Shown here piece after piece: positions 40,663 to 47,479 of a DNA stretch of 64,000 bases. The notes beneath the pieces were generated by a model, which saw nothing but the letters and a program-made list of their open reading frames with translations, searched no databases and was not told the DNA's origin. Location of the stretch: assembly GCF_016097415.1 (NCBI RefSeq), contig NZ_JAEHGE010000001.1:3211157-3275156 (forward strand). Direction: 5' to 3'. A program made the translations under genes and the position numbers. The first letter of the stretch is position 1; each line of letters opens with the position of its first letter. This DNA comes from a sulfur-oxidizing endosymbiont of Gigantopelta aegis. Lineage in GTDB: Bacteria; Pseudomonadota; Gammaproteobacteria; GRL18.

Positions 40663-40738
40663 GCCCGGATAGCTCAGTCGGTAGAGCAAGGGACTGAAAA
40701 TCCCTGTGTCCCTGGTTCGATTCCAGGTCCGGGCACCA
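40663..40738 (+). tRNA. tRNA-Phe (GAA)
   Basis: 76 nt with encoded CCA. The acceptor arm GCCCGGA pairs with TCCGGGC; D arm GCTC...GAGC; anticodon stem GGGAC/TCCC region with anticodon GAA at 40696-40698; T arm CCTGGTTCGATTCCAGG. A short pyrimidine-rich tract follows. No attachment-site repeat of the tRNA 3' end is seen elsewhere in the window. Confidence 0.97.
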
Positions 40739-40929: not shown

Positions 40930-41382
40930 ATGAGCAAAAGTATTATTCAGGGAGTCACTCCTGAAGAAAAGGAATTCAGTGACAATAATATTACCTGGCA
41001 TAAGGGTGTATTATTGGGAATTGAAAAAAATACCAGTTGGAAATACGTTACTAATCTTGGCATAAACTTTAAATATTGTAGGGAGCAAAGTAACACGGCT
41101 GAAGATTTTATCGAGCAAGCAAGAATTAATCATGCTATTGATGTACAGAAAAAAGTTCAAAAAACAAAACCTTCCAACAATTCTAATGCTAGCAATGACA
41201 TTAACAGCAATAAAATTTCAAGCATACATAAAATAAAAAAAAGTGCTACACCTCAACAGCAGTTTACAAGTTGTAGTCATTGTTCACATCATATCAGTCA
41301 GACATTAAATAAATGTATGATGTGTATACATTTTAGTCTAGTTGATAATTTTACTCCAAGAAAAACAAGTTATTCAGCATAA
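40930..41382 (+). CDS. Uncharacterised protein with C-terminal zinc-ribbon motif
   Basis: 150 aa, family not recognised. The N-terminal 60 residues look folded (EKEFSDNNITWHKGVLLGIE, then TSWKYVTNLGINFKYC). The middle (about 75-110) is Ser/Asn/Lys-rich and probably disordered. The C-terminus has two CxxC pairs, SCSHCSHHISQ and NKCMMCIHF, which probably bind a metal. No signal peptide. It stands alone between tRNA-Phe and the SoxB-like gene. Base composition is more AT-rich than the neighbours, so horizontal acquisition beside the tRNA is possible. Confidence 0.7.
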   Translation: MSKSIIQGVTPEEKEFSDNNITWHKGVLLGIEKNTSWKYVTNLGINFKYCREQSNTAEDFIEQARINHAIDVQKKVQKTKPSNNSNASNDINSNKISSIHKIKKSATPQQQFTSCSHCSHHISQTLNKCMMCIHFSLVDNFTPRKTSYSA

Positions 41383-41572: not shown

Positions 41573-44152
41573 ATGTTTTTTACAAGACAACGAAGGTTAT
41601 CTCAAGCCGTATTTGCCATGCTTGCAGGTACAGCACTGACCTTATCGGCATCCGCCTTTGCTGATGATAAACACGATAATGACAACGATGACGATGATAA
41701 AAATGAACGTAAAGTCTATATCATGCATTCCGGTGATTTACATGGTGACACCGAATCTCACCCAAATGCCAGAGCAGATGCCACGGGTAGACTTGAAGGT
41801 GGACTCGCGCGTGCTGCGACTGTTATTAAGAAATTAAAGAAAAAACATAAGGGTAAAATAATCTGGGGGCACACAGGCGATACCATTCAAGGTAGCGCAG
41901 TTGCCACCTACACTCAGGGCAAAGCATTGGTTGATGTCTGGGATGCGCTAGCCCCTGATGTGTTTGCAGCAGGTAACTGGGAGTTTGTCTACGGTCTGTA
42001 TCGTTATCAACAACTATTTGGCAGTGATGGCGATATTCGCCCTATTACTGAAGCTGAATATGGCCAGATGTTTATGAAACCATACGATCCTAGTGGCAAT
42101 ATCTATCAGGGCTTTAACCCTGAACACGCCATTAAGGCTGATCAGAATGGAGAAAAGCGTCGCTGGCGTTCAATTTCTGCTAATGCCTATTATAATGGTT
42201 TGAATGTTGGTCCTGGTGTGAATGGTAAAACAGCCGGTGAACATTTTACTGATCCTTATTATATTAAGGAAGTAAACGGTATTAAAATTGGTTTCATTGG
42301 CTGTACGACCAATCGTGGCCCTCAAGTTGTTAGCTCTAATGTCACAGCCGGTCTGTCATTCTCGAACTGTATGGGTGGTGTCAAATTCCCACAAAACAAA
42401 GCCATTGGCTGGGCGGATGATCACCCCAATCGAAATGCAGCTAAAGAAAAGAGTGTACAAAATCCTTTGGGTAAGGAAATGCCACAATGGGGCTCTACCG
42501 TTGGCTTCCACACCGTACCTGAAATCATAAAATTCACAGAAATTTTACGTGCTGATAAGGGGATAGATACGCAATACATTAACTCTGCTACCGGTACGCC
42601 TTGGCAAGGTGAAGGTGTTGACTTAGTTGTGGTTATGTCTGAAGCGGGCATTCCTGAAAATCTATGGAATGCTGAACATGCAACAATGCCTGAAGGTGTT
42701 CGTTTCCCAGAGATTATTCTCTCCTCTGACACGCATGAGCGTACCCGTTACCCTGTTGTTGCCACCAATATCGACGGCAATAAAACAGTCATCATCGAAG
42801 AAGGTGAAGATGGTATGCAAGTGGGTTTACTCGAGCTTGAATTTGAAGGTGGTGAGCTAAAAGAATGGGAATGGAAGCGTTATGATATTGATGATAGCAT
42901 CCGTCCTGACAGTGAAATTGCTGACTTAGTCAAAGATGCTCGCGCACCCTTTGTTAGTGTTGCAGGCGGTGGTGACTGGGTTCCAGGTGATGAATTCCTG
43001 AATCCTTTCAATGGTTATACACTGACTGTGCCCATTGATTATCAAATGGCAAGTACAGAAGTTGTTCTGGAACGTAATCGTTTCTCTTATGAGCATGATC
43101 CTGCAAACTTAAAAATGCCTGCTGATATTGAAGGGACTTTACATGATGTCTATGCTGATGCTTTCCGCGCTCTAACCGATGCCGACGTAGGTGAGATACG
43201 TGGTTTCCGCTACAACAATACTATTATGCCTGGTCCTATTACTGTGAAAGATGTTTATCATAGTTTGACTATTGGTGCGATGATTGCTCGAGGCAATATT
43301 CCTGCTTCACCTGAAGCAGAAGCTGCCGCTGGTACTTGTATCTCGGATAAAACCGATCCTAACTATAAAAACCACACCAAGAATGATTGTCATTTCCTTG
43401 GCTGGCCCCGTAGCTTAGTGCAAACCCTGGAACTTTCGGGCAATGGCACACAGCAGGCTAGAATCCCTGGATGGAGTGGTGGTTGGTTCTTCAATTATTC
43501 AGGTGTGAACTTTGATCTGGATGTGTTTAAACCAAACTTTGATAAGTATGGTTCAAAACTACGTTCACGTACTTCCAATGTACGCTTGGTGGATGCAGAG
43601 ACCGGTTTAGACAAGGGTGGAAACTTACCCAGTCATATTGATATTGCTGCTTACTATTTTGATGGTGACTTCAATCGCATTAACCGTAATCAGATTGTGT
43701 CTAAGCTAACTTGTAAGAAAGCCGGCTATCCTGGTGTGACTCGTGCTTGTGCCGATGAGAAAATGTTAATTCTGGTTAAAGTGGGCAAGGCTTATGGCGC
43801 TCAAATGGCCTGGGTTAACTCTACTCAATTCAGCCAGCGTGAAACTGCAAGCATTGATGGTTATGACATCTTTCCTCTGGATGTCGTTGAAGCCTTTGGT
43901 CGCTATGTCAACGAGGCAGACATCAATATCCTTGACCTGCGTAGTGGCACGGCAGAAACCGTTACCGTTTCAGGTTTAGGTGGTGCTGTAACTGTCGCGA
44001 ACCTATCGCCTACCTTCCCACGTATCAATCTATTAGAGCAGTTGCCTGATGGTCGTGATGAATTTGGTTTCAGTGTCATTCAACCAATGCGTGGTGCGAC
44101 TTTAACACCGGCCAATCGTGTTGATGCACCTGACGATGAAGGTGATTTTTAA
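41573..44152 (+). CDS. SoxB-related 5'-nucleotidase-family metallophosphoesterase, exported
   Basis: 859 aa. Sec signal peptide (AVFAMLAGTALTLSASAFA), an acidic linker (DDKHDNDNDDDDKNERK), then a metallophosphoesterase domain: MHSGDLHGDTESHP, GHTGDTIQGSAVATYTQG, AAGNWEFVYG and ILSSDTHERTRYP, and a C-terminal 5'-nucleotidase-like region. GDTxQGSAxAxxTxGxxxVD and the WEF motif resemble SoxB, the thiosulfate-oxidising hydrolase, more than ordinary 5'-nucleotidases (GNHEF). It differs from SoxB in length (SoxB is about 560 aa) and in lacking a Tat signal, and no other sox gene is nearby. Substrate unknown: a sulfonate-ester-like or nucleotide phosphoester. A terminator follows. Confidence 0.8.
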   Translation: MFFTRQRRLSQAVFAMLAGTALTLSASAFADDKHDNDNDDDDKNERKVYIMHSGDLHGDTESHPNARADATGRLEGGLARAATVIKKLKKKHKGKIIWGHTGDTIQGSAVATYTQGKALVDVWDALAPDVFAAGNWEFVYGLYRYQQLFGSDGDIRPITEAEYGQMFMKPYDPSGNIYQGFNPEHAIKADQNGEKRRWRSISANAYYNGLNVGPGVNGKTAGEHFTDPYYIKEVNGIKIGFIGCTTNRGPQVVSSNVTAGLSFSNCMGGVKFPQNKAIGWADDHPNRNAAKEKSVQNPLGKEMPQWGSTVGFHTVPEIIKFTEILRADKGIDTQYINSATGTPWQGEGVDLVVVMSEAGIPENLWNAEHATMPEGVRFPEIILSSDTHERTRYPVVATNIDGNKTVIIEEGEDGMQVGLLELEFEGGELKEWEWKRYDIDDSIRPDSEIADLVKDARAPFVSVAGGGDWVPGDEFLNPFNGYTLTVPIDYQMASTEVVLERNRFSYEHDPANLKMPADIEGTLHDVYADAFRALTDADVGEIRGFRYNNTIMPGPITVKDVYHSLTIGAMIARGNIPASPEAEAAAGTCISDKTDPNYKNHTKNDCHFLGWPRSLVQTLELSGNGTQQARIPGWSGGWFFNYSGVNFDLDVFKPNFDKYGSKLRSRTSNVRLVDAETGLDKGGNLPSHIDIAAYYFDGDFNRINRNQIVSKLTCKKAGYPGVTRACADEKMLILVKVGKAYGAQMAWVNSTQFSQRETASIDGYDIFPLDVVEAFGRYVNEADINILDLRSGTAETVTVSGLGGAVTVANLSPTFPRINLLEQLPDGRDEFGFSVIQPMRGATLTPANRVDAPDDEGDF

Positions 44153-44185: not shown

Positions 44186-44212
44186 AGCCCGCTCTTTGAG
44201 TGGGCTTTTTTA
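44186..44212 (+). terminator. Intrinsic terminator after the SoxB-like gene
   Basis: AGCCCGCTC TTTG AGTGGGCT forms a stem with one mismatch, followed by TTTTT. It lies 34 bp after the stop codon. Confidence 0.85.
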
Positions 44213-44336: not shown

Positions 44337-44720
44337 ATGAAGAATATAAAATTTAATAAAAAATATTTGCTTATCACTGGTAGTTTTATAATTATCACAG
44401 GTCTTAATGGCTGCTCCAAAAACACCGATAATCAGCCCCAGCAAACAATCCAAACCGAACAAGTCGATAGTCAGAAAGACTACTTTGGTGAAGCCAACCG
44501 CATCCAAAAATTTTCTGCCGACAAAAAATATCAAGCGGCTCTTTATACCAATGCTTTTCCTCTCAAAACAGGTGTCATTCATAGTTGGATATTACAAGTC
44601 ACTACACCCGATGGACAAGCTGTAGAAGCAAAGAAGATTTATGTGCATGGCGGTATGCCTATGCACCAACATGGATTTCCAACCACCCCTAGGACCCAGT
44701 ATTTGGGCAATGGCCTGTAT
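44337..44720 (+). pseudogene. Lipoprotein (YtkA/FixH-like domain), truncated by transposon junction
   Basis: Signal peptide with lipobox LNGCSKN (acylated Cys at about residue 23) followed by a domain with FPLKTGVIHSWILQV and IYVHGGMPMHQHGFPTTP, matching YtkA-like periplasmic domains. Homology stops at about YLGNGLY (44720); the frame then runs into transposase DNA and ends at 44780 with an unrelated tail. The native C-terminal part (usually a short strand with GWW-type ending) is absent. Likely non-functional. Confidence 0.7.
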
Positions 44721-45891
44721 GTATTTTCAAGAGCCTTCCCTTGCACAGTTTCAGTTGCGAATGGAAGAAGAGCTTCATAAAAATAATTTACGAACCCTCT
44801 TTGGTGTTGAGAATATACCTCAAAACAGTCAACTGCGAAAGATACTTGATGCTGTGCCCAGTGAAGGGTTCGCCCCCATTTTTAAAGATTTGTTTGAACG
44901 TCTGAGACGGCACAAACATTTAGAAGATTATGCTATTTTTCCCAATATATTACTGTGCGTAATTGATGGCACCCAGTATCACAGTTCAAAAGACATTCAT
45001 TGTGAACAATGCCTGCATAAAGAACATAAAAGCGGTGAAATCACTTACAGTCATGCCGTATTACAAGGTGCCATCATGCACCCAGATAAAAAACAAGTGT
45101 TACCAGTCATGCCTGAAGCCATCCAAAATAAAGATGGTACAGAGAAACAAGACTGTGAGATCAATGCCAGCAAACGCTTCATTGCTCAATTGAAAAAAGA
45201 CCACCCTCGCCAAGGCTTTGTTATCTGTGGTGATGGACTGATGTCACACCAACCGATGATTGAAACCATTAAAGATAATAAAATGCATTATCTTCTGGTG
45301 ACCAAACCAGGTGATCATAAATATCTTTTCGAATGGCTCAATGACTTTACTGAATTGTCCTCATTTGAAACCATCGATGAGAAAGGTCGTACCCATCAGT
45401 ATCGTTGGAAAAATGCAGTTCCATTACATGGTGAAGCTGATGCCGTCACCGTTAACTTCCTTGAGTATCATCTCATCAATTCAGAAGGAAAGATCACCTA
45501 TCGTAATAGCTGGGTGACTGACTTTCAAGTCAGTGAGCACAATATTATCCAACTGGTTCAGGCTGGGCGTTGTAGATGGAAGATTGAGAATGAGTGTTTT
45601 AACACGCTGAAAAATCAGGGCTATTCTATAGAACATAATTATGGTCATGGTAAACAACATCTCAGCTATAACATGTACCTACTTACCTTGCTGGCCTTTT
45701 ACTTTCATCAAATATTTGAGCTGACCGATGGGGCTTATCAGGCCTGTCGAACTAAAGCAGGTTCTAAGCGGTATTTGTGGGAAATGTTCAGAGGGACTAT
45801 TCAGTTTCTTGTCATGGATTCATGGGAGGAAATGATGGATTTGTATTTAAATCCAGATGACTACGAGGTAACGAAAACGAAAAAATCTTAA
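44710..45891 (+). pseudogene. DDE transposase, 5'-truncated
   Basis: Reads ACMYFQEPSLAQFQLRMEEE to the stop at 45891. Contains LLCVIDGTQYHSSKDIHCEQ (first catalytic Asp), FVICGDGLMSHQP (second) and RWKIENECFNTLKNQGYSIE (Glu), a pattern of the IS4-like DDE transposases with a Cys pair after the first Asp. The first 40 or so residues expected before the PSL-x-FQ motif are missing, and the DNA before it belongs to the lipoprotein gene. The right end of this element is interrupted by IS21 12 bp past the stop. Confidence 0.75.
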
Positions 45892-45985
45892 ACCCAACTA
45901 TTAGGCGACAATTAACTTGTCCGGTCGGCGACAACTAGCTTGGCCGGTTTGATACACTCCAGACACATTAATCGAGAAGGATTTT

Positions 45986-47479
45986 ATGTCTGGAAAATCA
46001 ATTACCCAAGAACAGGTCAAGTTATACATGTCACATCGAAAACAACCGAATCACACTCAAGCTTCATCAGCAGCCAAAGCAGGATTTTCAGAAAGATCAG
46101 CGCGACGCATTGATACAGGTAAGCACCCCGGCGGCACCACACAGCCCAGACAGTACAAAACTCGAAAAGATCCCTTAAATGGTGCTTTTGAACAACATTT
46201 AGTGCCCTTACTTGAGATTGAGCCCAAACTACAGCCCATTACCTTATTAGAAGCACTGGAAGAGCTAGAACCCGGTCAATTTGACAACACTCACCTAAGA
46301 ACACTGCAACGCCGAGTCAAACGCTGGCGTGCTCAGGAAGGACCGGAGCAAGAAGTTATTTTTCAACAAAAACACATTGCCGGTGATATGGGTATTTCAG
46401 ATTACACCTGGGCTAATGAGCTTAAAATCACGATTGACGGAGAAGAGTTTAAACACAAACTTTATCACTACCGATTGGTTTATAGTGGCTGGACTTATGT
46501 TCAAGTTGTCTTAGGTGGAGAGAGCTTTGAATCTCTTTCTTCAGGCTTACAAAATGCGCTATGGCAATCAGGCGGTGTCCCTGTAAGCCACCGAACCGAT
46601 AGCCTAAGTGCTGCATTTAACAATCATTATGAACAAGAAAAGCTGACCGAGCGTTATGAAAAATTATGTCAATACTATGGTATAAAAGCCACTCGAAACA
46701 ATAAAGGCATTGCCCATGAAAATGGAGCCATTGAATCCCCTAATGGTCATTTAAAACGCCGAATCGAACAAAAGCTACTCCTTCGTGGCAGTCGAGATTT
46801 TACCGCCTTATTGGATTATGAAGCCTTTATTGATGACATCGTTCGCCAAATAAACATACGCTGTAAAACACGATTTAATGAAGAAAAAGCACACTTAAAA
46901 CCGCTTCCCAGCCGCCGCACCAATGGCTTTAGTGAGCTCTATGTTAAAGTCACCACAAGGAGTACCATTTCAGTTAAACGAGTCACTTATACCGTACCCT
47001 CCCGATTGATTGGTACCACGTTATTGATCCATATTTATGATCAACATTTAGATTGTTTCTATGGTCATGAATTGACCTTAAGTTTAAAGCGTATTTATGC
47101 ACACCGCCATATCCGTTCGCGTTCAATCAATTATAAACATATCATTCACTCGTTAGCCAAAAAGCCCAATGCCTTTAAATCATCGGCTTACCGAGATGAT
47201 ATTGTCCCAGAAGGTGATTTCACCCTGATTTGGGAAAATCTCAAACAAACGGGCATTCATGATGATGATTGCCGTTATATGGTGAGCTTGCTGTCCATTG
47301 CCGATGCCTATGATTGTGAAGCAGCGCTGGGTCGTTTTGTCTTAGCCTCGTTAGAAGCCGGCAGTCGAGTTTCCATCAAAGCGTGCCGTGACTTTTTTGC
47401 GCCCATGTCGGTTGATAGACCTCAGTACACCAGTCAGCAACATGACTTATCGACCTACAATGTATTACTGGGGAATTAA
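45986..47479 (+). CDS. istA: IS21 transposase IstA
   Basis: 497 aa, full length for IstA. N-terminal helix-turn-helix (SSAAKAGFSERSARRIDTGK), a DDE integrase core with TYVQVVLGGESFESL and NKGIAHENGAIESPNGHLKR, and a C-terminal beta domain (KRVTYTVPSRLIGTTLLIHI). Start ATG with GAGAAGG ten bases ahead. It catalyses strand transfer with IstB as ATP-dependent helper. Confidence 0.93.
   Translation: MSGKSITQEQVKLYMSHRKQPNHTQASSAAKAGFSERSARRIDTGKHPGGTTQPRQYKTRKDPLNGAFEQHLVPLLEIEPKLQPITLLEALEELEPGQFDNTHLRTLQRRVKRWRAQEGPEQEVIFQQKHIAGDMGISDYTWANELKITIDGEEFKHKLYHYRLVYSGWTYVQVVLGGESFESLSSGLQNALWQSGGVPVSHRTDSLSAAFNNHYEQEKLTERYEKLCQYYGIKATRNNKGIAHENGAIESPNGHLKRRIEQKLLLRGSRDFTALLDYEAFIDDIVRQINIRCKTRFNEEKAHLKPLPSRRTNGFSELYVKVTTRSTISVKRVTYTVPSRLIGTTLLIHIYDQHLDCFYGHELTLSLKRIYAHRHIRSRSINYKHIIHSLAKKPNAFKSSAYRDDIVPEGDFTLIWENLKQTGIHDDDCRYMVSLLSIADAYDCEAALGRFVLASLEAGSRVSIKACRDFFAPMSVDRPQYTSQQHDLSTYNVLLGN

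Follow-up and report, generated by a model that had tools for sequence, protein, structure and literature searches.

A SoxB-related clade with exchanged metal-ligand positions, candidate polythionate hydrolases, in a sulfur-oxidizing endosymbiont of Gigantopelta aegis

The stretch analyzed here (the window) comprises 64,000 nucleotides of contig NZ_JAEHGE010000001.1 (C1, 3.211-3.275 Mb) from a sulfur-oxidizing endosymbiont of Gigantopelta aegis and carries a gene whose product is related to both SoxB and 5'-nucleotidases. Our analysis places this protein in a distinct clade, called T here, in which two His ligand positions of the predicted binuclear centre are occupied by Glu and Asp. We propose that T is a clade of periplasmic, probably binuclear metallohydrolases that shares its ancestry with SoxB and acts on polythionates independently of SoxYZ, a reading to which we assign a probability of roughly 0.46, i.e. 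somewhat below even odds. A wider formulation, advanced more tentatively, is that T represents a third family of S-S bond hydrolases beside SoxB and tetrathionate hydrolase (TTH), free of SoxYZ, with an all-oxygen second metal site reached stepwise from a SoxB-like ancestor, and working with TsdA or, in the branch of the window gene (maybe on another sulfur compound), with a YtkA-MauG pair. The metal, the substrate, the reaction and the role of this pair are what we infer from the sequences, the tree, the predicted fold and the gene order.

A review describes hydrolases as few in the oxidation of reduced sulfur compounds ("only TTH and SoxB") and the tetrathionate route as widespread, and indicates that the purified TTHs come from acidophiles (PMC10859504). 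SoxB presumably uses two manganese ions to hydrolyse thiosulfonate bound to SoxY; the same source stresses that direct evidence for the Sox reactions was still missing (PMC5336275). No description of the T clade was found in the open-licence literature that we searched. This clade, often located beside TsdA in other sulfur oxidizers, would be a candidate further hydrolase.

Metal ligands and phylogeny of the T clade

Ligand positions were compared in an alignment of 132 rows including T, SoxB, intermediate and nucleotidase sequences (176 candidates yielded 145 profile hits; leaving out 10 SoxB frames that were extra or partial, together with L089_8, L089_10 and L066_0, reduced these by 13). 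Ligand roles were assigned via alignment to UshA, whose site 2 ligands we take to be D84, N116, H217 and H252 and whose catalytic dyad and base-stacking residues are presumably H117/D120 and F429/F498; the column letters were computed and the UshA numbers serve for orientation. Glu was found at position 357 in 80 rows, 76 of them also having Asp at position 386 (E+D rows), and none of the 132 rows has Asp386 without Glu357. Asp55, His57, Asp103, Asn135, Trp136 and His388 are present in all 76 E+D rows. Since the presence of both residues was the criterion for choosing these 76 rows, and the first His that for the 36 SoxB rows, the counts at those positions are circular by definition. Fairer tests, even though the named loci were found by motif patterns, are provided by (i) the 44 T-clade rows of the tree, all with Asn, Trp, Glu and Asp at the four key positions, (ii) 12 proteins from a protein search made without motif patterns, in which the same key positions are invariant, and (iii) the A2 rows (58 rows hand-chosen from 70 listed, outliers having already been left out of the listing), with Glu357 and Asp386 in 59/59. 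By comparison, the SoxB-His rows have Trp and then His, His and His at the following positions (36/36), and in the nucleotidase rows the corresponding letters are Asn and three His, followed by His, Gln or Asn (9/9; two of the 11 GNH rows, L151 and L165, were left out as several ligands are missing). At the positions of the GHWEF, SHxG and HTH motifs of SoxB, the window protein carries Asn-Trp, Glu357 and Asp386, not the SoxB set of His.

According to this alignment, site 1 keeps Asp55, His57, Asp103 and His388, and the predicted site 2 is now composed of Asp103, Asn135, Glu357 and Asp386. Because Glu and Asp replace two His ligands, site 2 should be all-oxygen; it would hold a hard cation (Mn2+, Ca2+, Mg2+ or Fe), taken up after Sec export. 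The original prediction, made from the letters of the window, had drawn attention to a GNWEF motif, which lies at residues 134-138, as a hybrid between nucleotidase and SoxB motifs. This motif is indeed odd, but it does not stand alone: the whole clade is characterized by Asn and Trp, accompanied by two more changed ligand positions. What had been missed is the wider exchange, which involves Glu357 and Asp386.

The tree was built with 79 of the 132 rows after removal of eight key columns, and its branches were evaluated with the Shimodaira-Hasegawa-like approximate likelihood ratio test (SH-aLRT). T forms one clade (44 rows, support 100) and SoxB another (17 rows, support 100) that excludes the window protein. 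The eight nucleotidases split off at 100, and T groups with the SoxB side and not with them. The separate branch suggested by the original prediction is thus recovered, the protein being placed neither within the 5'-nucleotidases nor within canonical SoxB. It groups with L057 and L058 (100) inside a subclade (100) that comprises 11 rows of long proteins, and has both the tree place and the residues (N135, W136, E357 and D386) by which the T clade is defined. Support is weak for the order among the intermediate rows (80-91), the relative branching of T, SoxB and the GNV group is poorly resolved, and L148, L098_3, L121_15 and L118_10 have long branches. The GNV group (L149, L150, L152 and L153, with GNVD/GNVE, SHMG and AHTHD motifs) is a further SoxB-side group that makes up its own clade at 100.

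The exchanges of His for Glu and of His for Asp plausibly went stepwise, because relatives outside the T clade carry part of the change, as read from the alignment. Four rows with Glu keep the second His (the haloarchaeal L170 and L171, L118_6 and L121_15), and L098_3 has only Trp among the changes. L063_6 has both Glu and Asp, yet falls outside the T clade. The two haloarchaeal proteins (L170:5335-7122 and L171:5341-7125, both plasmid-encoded) share GNW and the Glu replacement with T but keep the second His (SAHTHE), and are annotated as bifunctional metallophosphatase/5'-nucleotidase. In L171, an MBL-fold hydrolase gene directly follows the gene of the GNW protein. T and its relatives thereby form a natural progression, with one His ligand of a binuclear centre and then a second being exchanged, which makes metal choice and a switch of reaction accessible to testing.

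Profiles, predicted fold and relation to nucleotidases

The top NCBIfam profile of the window protein is SoxB TIGR04486, with 94 bits, far below the cut-off of 550; two short relatives reach 204 and 193 bits against this profile, both also below the cut-off. Its sole Pfam match is 5_nucleotid_C PF02872 (residues 519-572, 24.8 bits for a cut-off of 23.6), and PF00149 (Metallophos) gave no match in this protein up to E = 1. Identification as a plain SoxB was rejected on the basis of profile, ligands and tree, and so was identification as a plain 5'-nucleotidase. T resembles SoxB (TIGR04486; 2wdc, 4uwq) in its two-domain fold, Asp-His-Asp ligands, Trp after the Asn/His position and side of the tree, and differs from it by having Asn where SoxB has the first His, Glu and Asp at two further His positions and no Tat-type (twin-arginine) motif. 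With 5'-nucleotidases, UshA and CD73 it shares the fold, the Asn of GNH and a C-terminal domain match barely exceeding the Pfam cut-off; unlike them, it has Trp in place of the catalytic His, two His ligands replaced and mostly Ile in place of the first stacking Phe. The GDxxQG core of the GDTxQGSAxAxxTxG block, initially presented as shared with SoxB, is also found in human CD73.

The AlphaFold model has a predicted local distance difference test score (pLDDT) of 88.1 and a predicted template modelling score (pTM) of 0.89. Its top VIA-align match is Thermus SoxB 2wdc (Z 32.4, root-mean-square deviation 2.2, 476 residues aligned), with nucleotidases tied at Z 31-32 (3ivd, Z 32.2; 2z1a, 32.0), and Foldseek puts nucleotidases first by E-value. 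The predicted fold is confident and leaves SoxB versus nucleotidase undecided; it is the ligands and the tree that decide.

The tie between structural matches would also fit a periplasmic enzyme (phosphatase, nucleotidase or phosphodiesterase) with different metals and unchanged phosphate chemistry, as would the single Pfam match and the second base-stacking position (F696 in the window protein), which is Y or F in 73/76 E+D rows. We nevertheless consider this rather unlikely, since the catalytic dyad of nucleotidases is gone: its first position (W136) is Trp in 76/76 rows and its second (V139) is V, L, S or T in the 73/76 rows listed. One of the two stacking positions is lost as well (I567 in the window protein, the UshA F429 column being I in 65/76 rows), and at the position of UshA N431 all 76 rows carry P or A. 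The alignment of the Arg residues of the C-terminal domain with those of UshA is ambiguous. The position of the nucleotidases in the tree and the TsdA, DsrE and SulP genes found among the recurrent neighbours of T also argue against phosphate chemistry. In L059, which belongs to the subclade of the window gene, an alkaline-phosphatase-like gene (152.7 bits, cut-off 540) located upstream of T speaks for it. A phosphate-starvation context was considered and rejected: cluster 5, which contains histidine kinases and response regulators from 13 loci, was formed by single linkage and is mixed, and a PhoR-like protein was recognized in it by eye only, in L072.

Gene neighbourhoods and proposed reaction

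A motif-pattern scan of named genomes yielded 79 loci, many of them in sulfur oxidizers as judged by name (Thiogranum, Thiobacillus, Sulfuriferula, Thiohalobacter, Thiosymbion and Beggiatoa relatives). Neighbours were counted by BLAST clustering in 74 loci (73 relatives and the window), each cluster being named from one or two scanned representatives; the six other loci (L066, L094, L099, L115, L120 and L130) have no ORF passing both motifs. TsdA-type proteins are encoded by 25 ORFs in 20/74 loci, 24 of these ORFs lying within 5 kb of T and 23 on the T strand. Their representative matches a solved thiosulfate dehydrogenase at 2e-50, and the set has two CxxCH motifs (25/25) and a conserved Cys in RxxxCF. 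In 13 loci, an uninterrupted same-strand run of c-type cytochrome, TsdA and SulP genes precedes T, with a DsrE gene between SulP and T in nine of them. Similarly, tsdB of Halomonas and others is reported as a cytochrome gene immediately ahead of tsdA (PMC9237845). TTH homologues are found in six loci, all within 5 kb of T (representative versus 6l8a, 5e-52), and in L063, a member of the subclade of the window gene, genes for a TtrS-like kinase and a response regulator adjoin T on the opposite strand. One of these three tetrathionate-type neighbours is present in 24/74 loci; among the 36 loci that span 18 kb or more, this applies to 14.

In the proposed mechanism, the substrate would be a small S-S-SO3 compound, either tetrathionate or a different polythionate, whose terminal sulfonate would be attacked by a metal-bound hydroxide with no need for SoxYZ as a carrier. 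For relatives located in TsdA operons, TsdA would supply tetrathionate from two thiosulfates. T would share its reaction with TTH, whose genes neighbour T in the six loci mentioned above. The two proteins differ in fold, that of TTH being a beta-propeller, and we do not claim any sequence relation between them. A related arrangement is known from Erythrobacter flavus 21-3, in which TsdA and a SoxB homologue turn thiosulfate into zero-valent sulfur via tetrathionate, with two more SoxB-domain proteins encoded in the cluster (PMC7608252). The SoxB with a demonstrated role in this strain is judged close to other SoxBs, and the two others retain typical SoxB ligands according to the authors (PMC7608252).

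The subclade of the window gene has other partners. A gene for a YtkA-like protein with a GGMPxHxH motif lies downstream of T in L057 (whose contig ends within it), L058, L061, L062 and L063, and is followed by a gene for a MauG-like diheme protein (CCP_MauG, 131.7 bits) in L058, L061 and L062. Directly behind T in L138 (10671-12548), a single 625-aa ORF encodes a YtkA-MauG fusion, as recognized by eye from its translation and by its match to the MauG cluster. In the available flanks of L059, L060, L064 and L065 (4/11 subclade rows), neither YtkA nor MauG was found; the MauG-cluster ORF of L070 does not follow T and was excluded from the partner counts. Co-occurrence was rejected as proof of the pairing: among 369 genomes of the class, 17 have a MauG relative at 1e-50, 13 of which are not T-positive. 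Two best of these relatives, in G056 and G322, adjoin T, and G103 and G111 have short T genes. The T-MauG pairing rests on gene order and on the fusion.

By analogy, the MauG-like protein and the YtkA domain may oxidize or condition the substrate of T in this subclade. Because this subclade has YtkA and MauG-like partners instead of TsdA, the substrate of the window gene is less certain than that of the TsdA-linked relatives. These partners could alternatively mean that T has no catalytic role and serves the MauG-YtkA pair as a binding protein or in maturation, for instance as a substrate with oxidized side chains, an idea in line with the T-YtkA-MauG order, the fusion and the loss of two His ligands. 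We regard it as quite improbable: none of the ligand positions varies within the clade, as would suit a functional metal site, the four subclade rows mentioned above lack both partners in their available flanks, and no target residue was identified.

Besides the structural tie, the Foldseek ranking and the alkaline-phosphatase-like neighbour of L059, several observations weigh against polythionate hydrolysis by T: (i) the usual partners in the subclade of the window gene are YtkA and MauG-like proteins, and no member of the TsdA or TTH clusters was found in its available flanks; (ii) no TsdA match was detected in the host genome, in a search run without a positive control; (iii) among the 36 loci that span 18 kb or more, 22 lack all three tetrathionate-type neighbours; (iv) several TsdA loci are possibly close kin, and the counts are raw frequencies near T; (v) the TtrS-like protein of L063 scores 312 bits for a cut-off of 750 and its regulator scores higher as FixJ (230 bits) than as TtrR (158 bits), both below cut-off, and this is a single locus; (vi) the patterns used for the locus search favour GNW[DE] and SSD[MT]HE, though not Glu357; (vii) G059 and G150, which are T-positive and belong to the subclade of the window gene, have no SoxB match at 1e-20; and (viii) the two extra SoxB-domain proteins of E. 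flavus are reported as dispensable for sulfur globules and as keeping typical SoxB ligands, which argues against their identity with T (PMC7608252). A different substrate, as had been suggested at first, is plausible, given the changed ligands and the tetrathionate-type neighbours of some relatives.

Distribution and host genome

A T match at 1e-30 was found in 18 of the 369 genomes of the class, including the host. Among 24 genomes of the host order, only that of the host has a full-length T match; the others do not exceed 25 bits, and their low-scoring frames, where aligned, carry SoxB motifs. The closest relatives, L057 and L058 (65-70% identity), come from a Chromatiales and another proteobacterial metagenome genome. 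True SoxB is present in at least 14 of the 18 T genomes (15 with G111, whose match was listed in part) compared to 134 of the 351 others (p = 0.001).

The host itself has two true SoxB genes on C1, at 2.578 Mb and 3.335 Mb (637 and 639 aa; 727.9 and 713.5 bits), both apart from the window, and two SoxY matches, one on C1 at 0.508 Mb and one on C2. The co-occurrence with SoxB, the two SoxY matches of the host, the common ancestry and Trp136 are what would be expected if T were a divergent functional SoxB, i.e. a SoxYZ-dependent thiosulfohydrolase acting on SoxY-bound thiosulfonate. This is unlikely, in our opinion, since the host already has two canonical SoxB proteins, since G059 and G150 have T without a SoxB match at 1e-20, and since T lies near a same-strand canonical SoxB gene in L088, suggesting a separate job. 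In this locus of Campylobacterota (L088:2163-9602), as in L089, canonical SoxB, DsrE-cluster ORFs and T are all on one strand. The original prediction had noted no other sox genes nearby, and for SoxB and SoxY this holds: the window contains neither, other than the own weak SoxB matches of the gene (SoxA, SoxX, SoxZ and SoxCD were not searched). This absence is no argument against a role in sulfur metabolism, because two SoxB genes and two SoxY matches are located elsewhere in the host genome.

Organization of the window gene and its surroundings

The gene and the features described below are listed in Table 1.

Table 1. Features of the T gene and of its surroundings in the window (positions from the first nucleotide of the window).
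Feature	Position	Strand	Details
T-clade gene, predicted periplasmic protein with SoxB/5'-nucleotidase two-domain fold	41573..44152	+	859 aa; ORF, tree, model
Sec-type signal peptide, residues 1-30, without twin-arginine motif	41573..41662	+	Cleavage site by eye; model helix 4-24
Acidic low-complexity tether, residues 31-45	41663..41707	+	Similar stretch in 8/76 rows; pLDDT <50 at 27-39
Asp55 and His57 codons, metal site 1 ligands	41735..41743	+	D and H in 76/76 E+D rows; roles via UshA alignment
Asp103 codon, bridging ligand	41879..41881	+	D in 76/76 E+D rows
Asn135 (site 2) and Trp136 (position of the nucleotidase catalytic His) codons	41975..41980	+	N and W in 76/76 rows and 44/44 tree rows
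Glu357 codon, in place of a site 2 His	42641..42643	+	E in 44/44 T-clade rows and 59/59 A2 rows
Asp386 (second site 2 His position) and His388 (site 1) codons	42728..42736	+	Asp in 44/44 T-clade rows and 59/59 A2 rows
C-terminal domain, 5_nucleotid_C type with insertions, approximate limits	43040..44050	+	PF02872 at residues 519-572; structural matches to residue 826
Terminator-like hairpin 3' of the T gene	44186..44206	+	9 pairs and T-run
5' part of YtkA-like lipoprotein gene	44337..44726	+	YtkA 22.6 bits, below cut-off of 25.9; cut near 44713-44726
Insertion element with ORF 44641-45891	44713..45898	+	Near-identical copy at C1:2563293-2564457, shared sequence from 44713

The T gene is intact, with a nonsynonymous divergence (dN) of 0.23 and a synonymous divergence (dS) of about 4 (saturated) relative to L057, values that fit long-term selection on the protein sequence, present-day use being a separate matter. 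The protein had been described as about 300 residues longer than SoxB; this holds relative to the Thermus crystal chain (562 aa), but the difference from the SoxB proteins of the host is about 220 residues. Its secretion-type N-terminus was correctly recognized and carries no twin-arginine motif: the strict [ST]RRxF motif is found in 0/76 E+D rows (window protein included) compared to 21/36 SoxB rows, and a loose one in 2/76 compared to 33/36. The signal peptide was called from the sequence, the model helix and these motif counts. The acidic stretch that follows had been over-read as a possible cation-binding linker. At least six D or E per 15 residues occur there in only eight of the 76 rows, including the window protein, with letters that vary among rows; the stretch is absent in the close relative L058, and its first residues have low confidence in the model (Table 1). 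A metal site was therefore rejected for this linker, which looks like a flexible tether in the model.

Downstream of T, the operon is disrupted. The homology of the YtkA-like product ends at residue 128 of 162, where a repeated element starts. This insertion element, also present in the host genome as many 73% copies, contains an ORF with no Pfam match that presumably encodes a transposase. The host has no close MauG relative, the best match being 32% over 110 residues. From the broken partner operon, it follows that the enzyme of the host would work alone or with the host Sox system, or would be heading for loss.

The GC content of the T gene (44.5%) exceeds that of the window (39.7%), and the gene was likely gained by transfer. 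A tRNA-Phe gene (40663-40738), a possible integration site, is located 0.8 kb upstream. Between them, a 150-aa ORF (40930-41382) with a Cys/His-rich end (CSHCSHH...CMMC) has no Pfam or NCBIfam match at 0.01. Terminator-like hairpins such as that found 3' of T occur at four sites in the window, compared to 3.5 expected by chance. Directly after the insertion element, the disrupted region (44337-45960) is followed by a second repeated element; a Mu-type transposase domain, scoring slightly over the cut-off, is encoded by its ORF (45986-47479).

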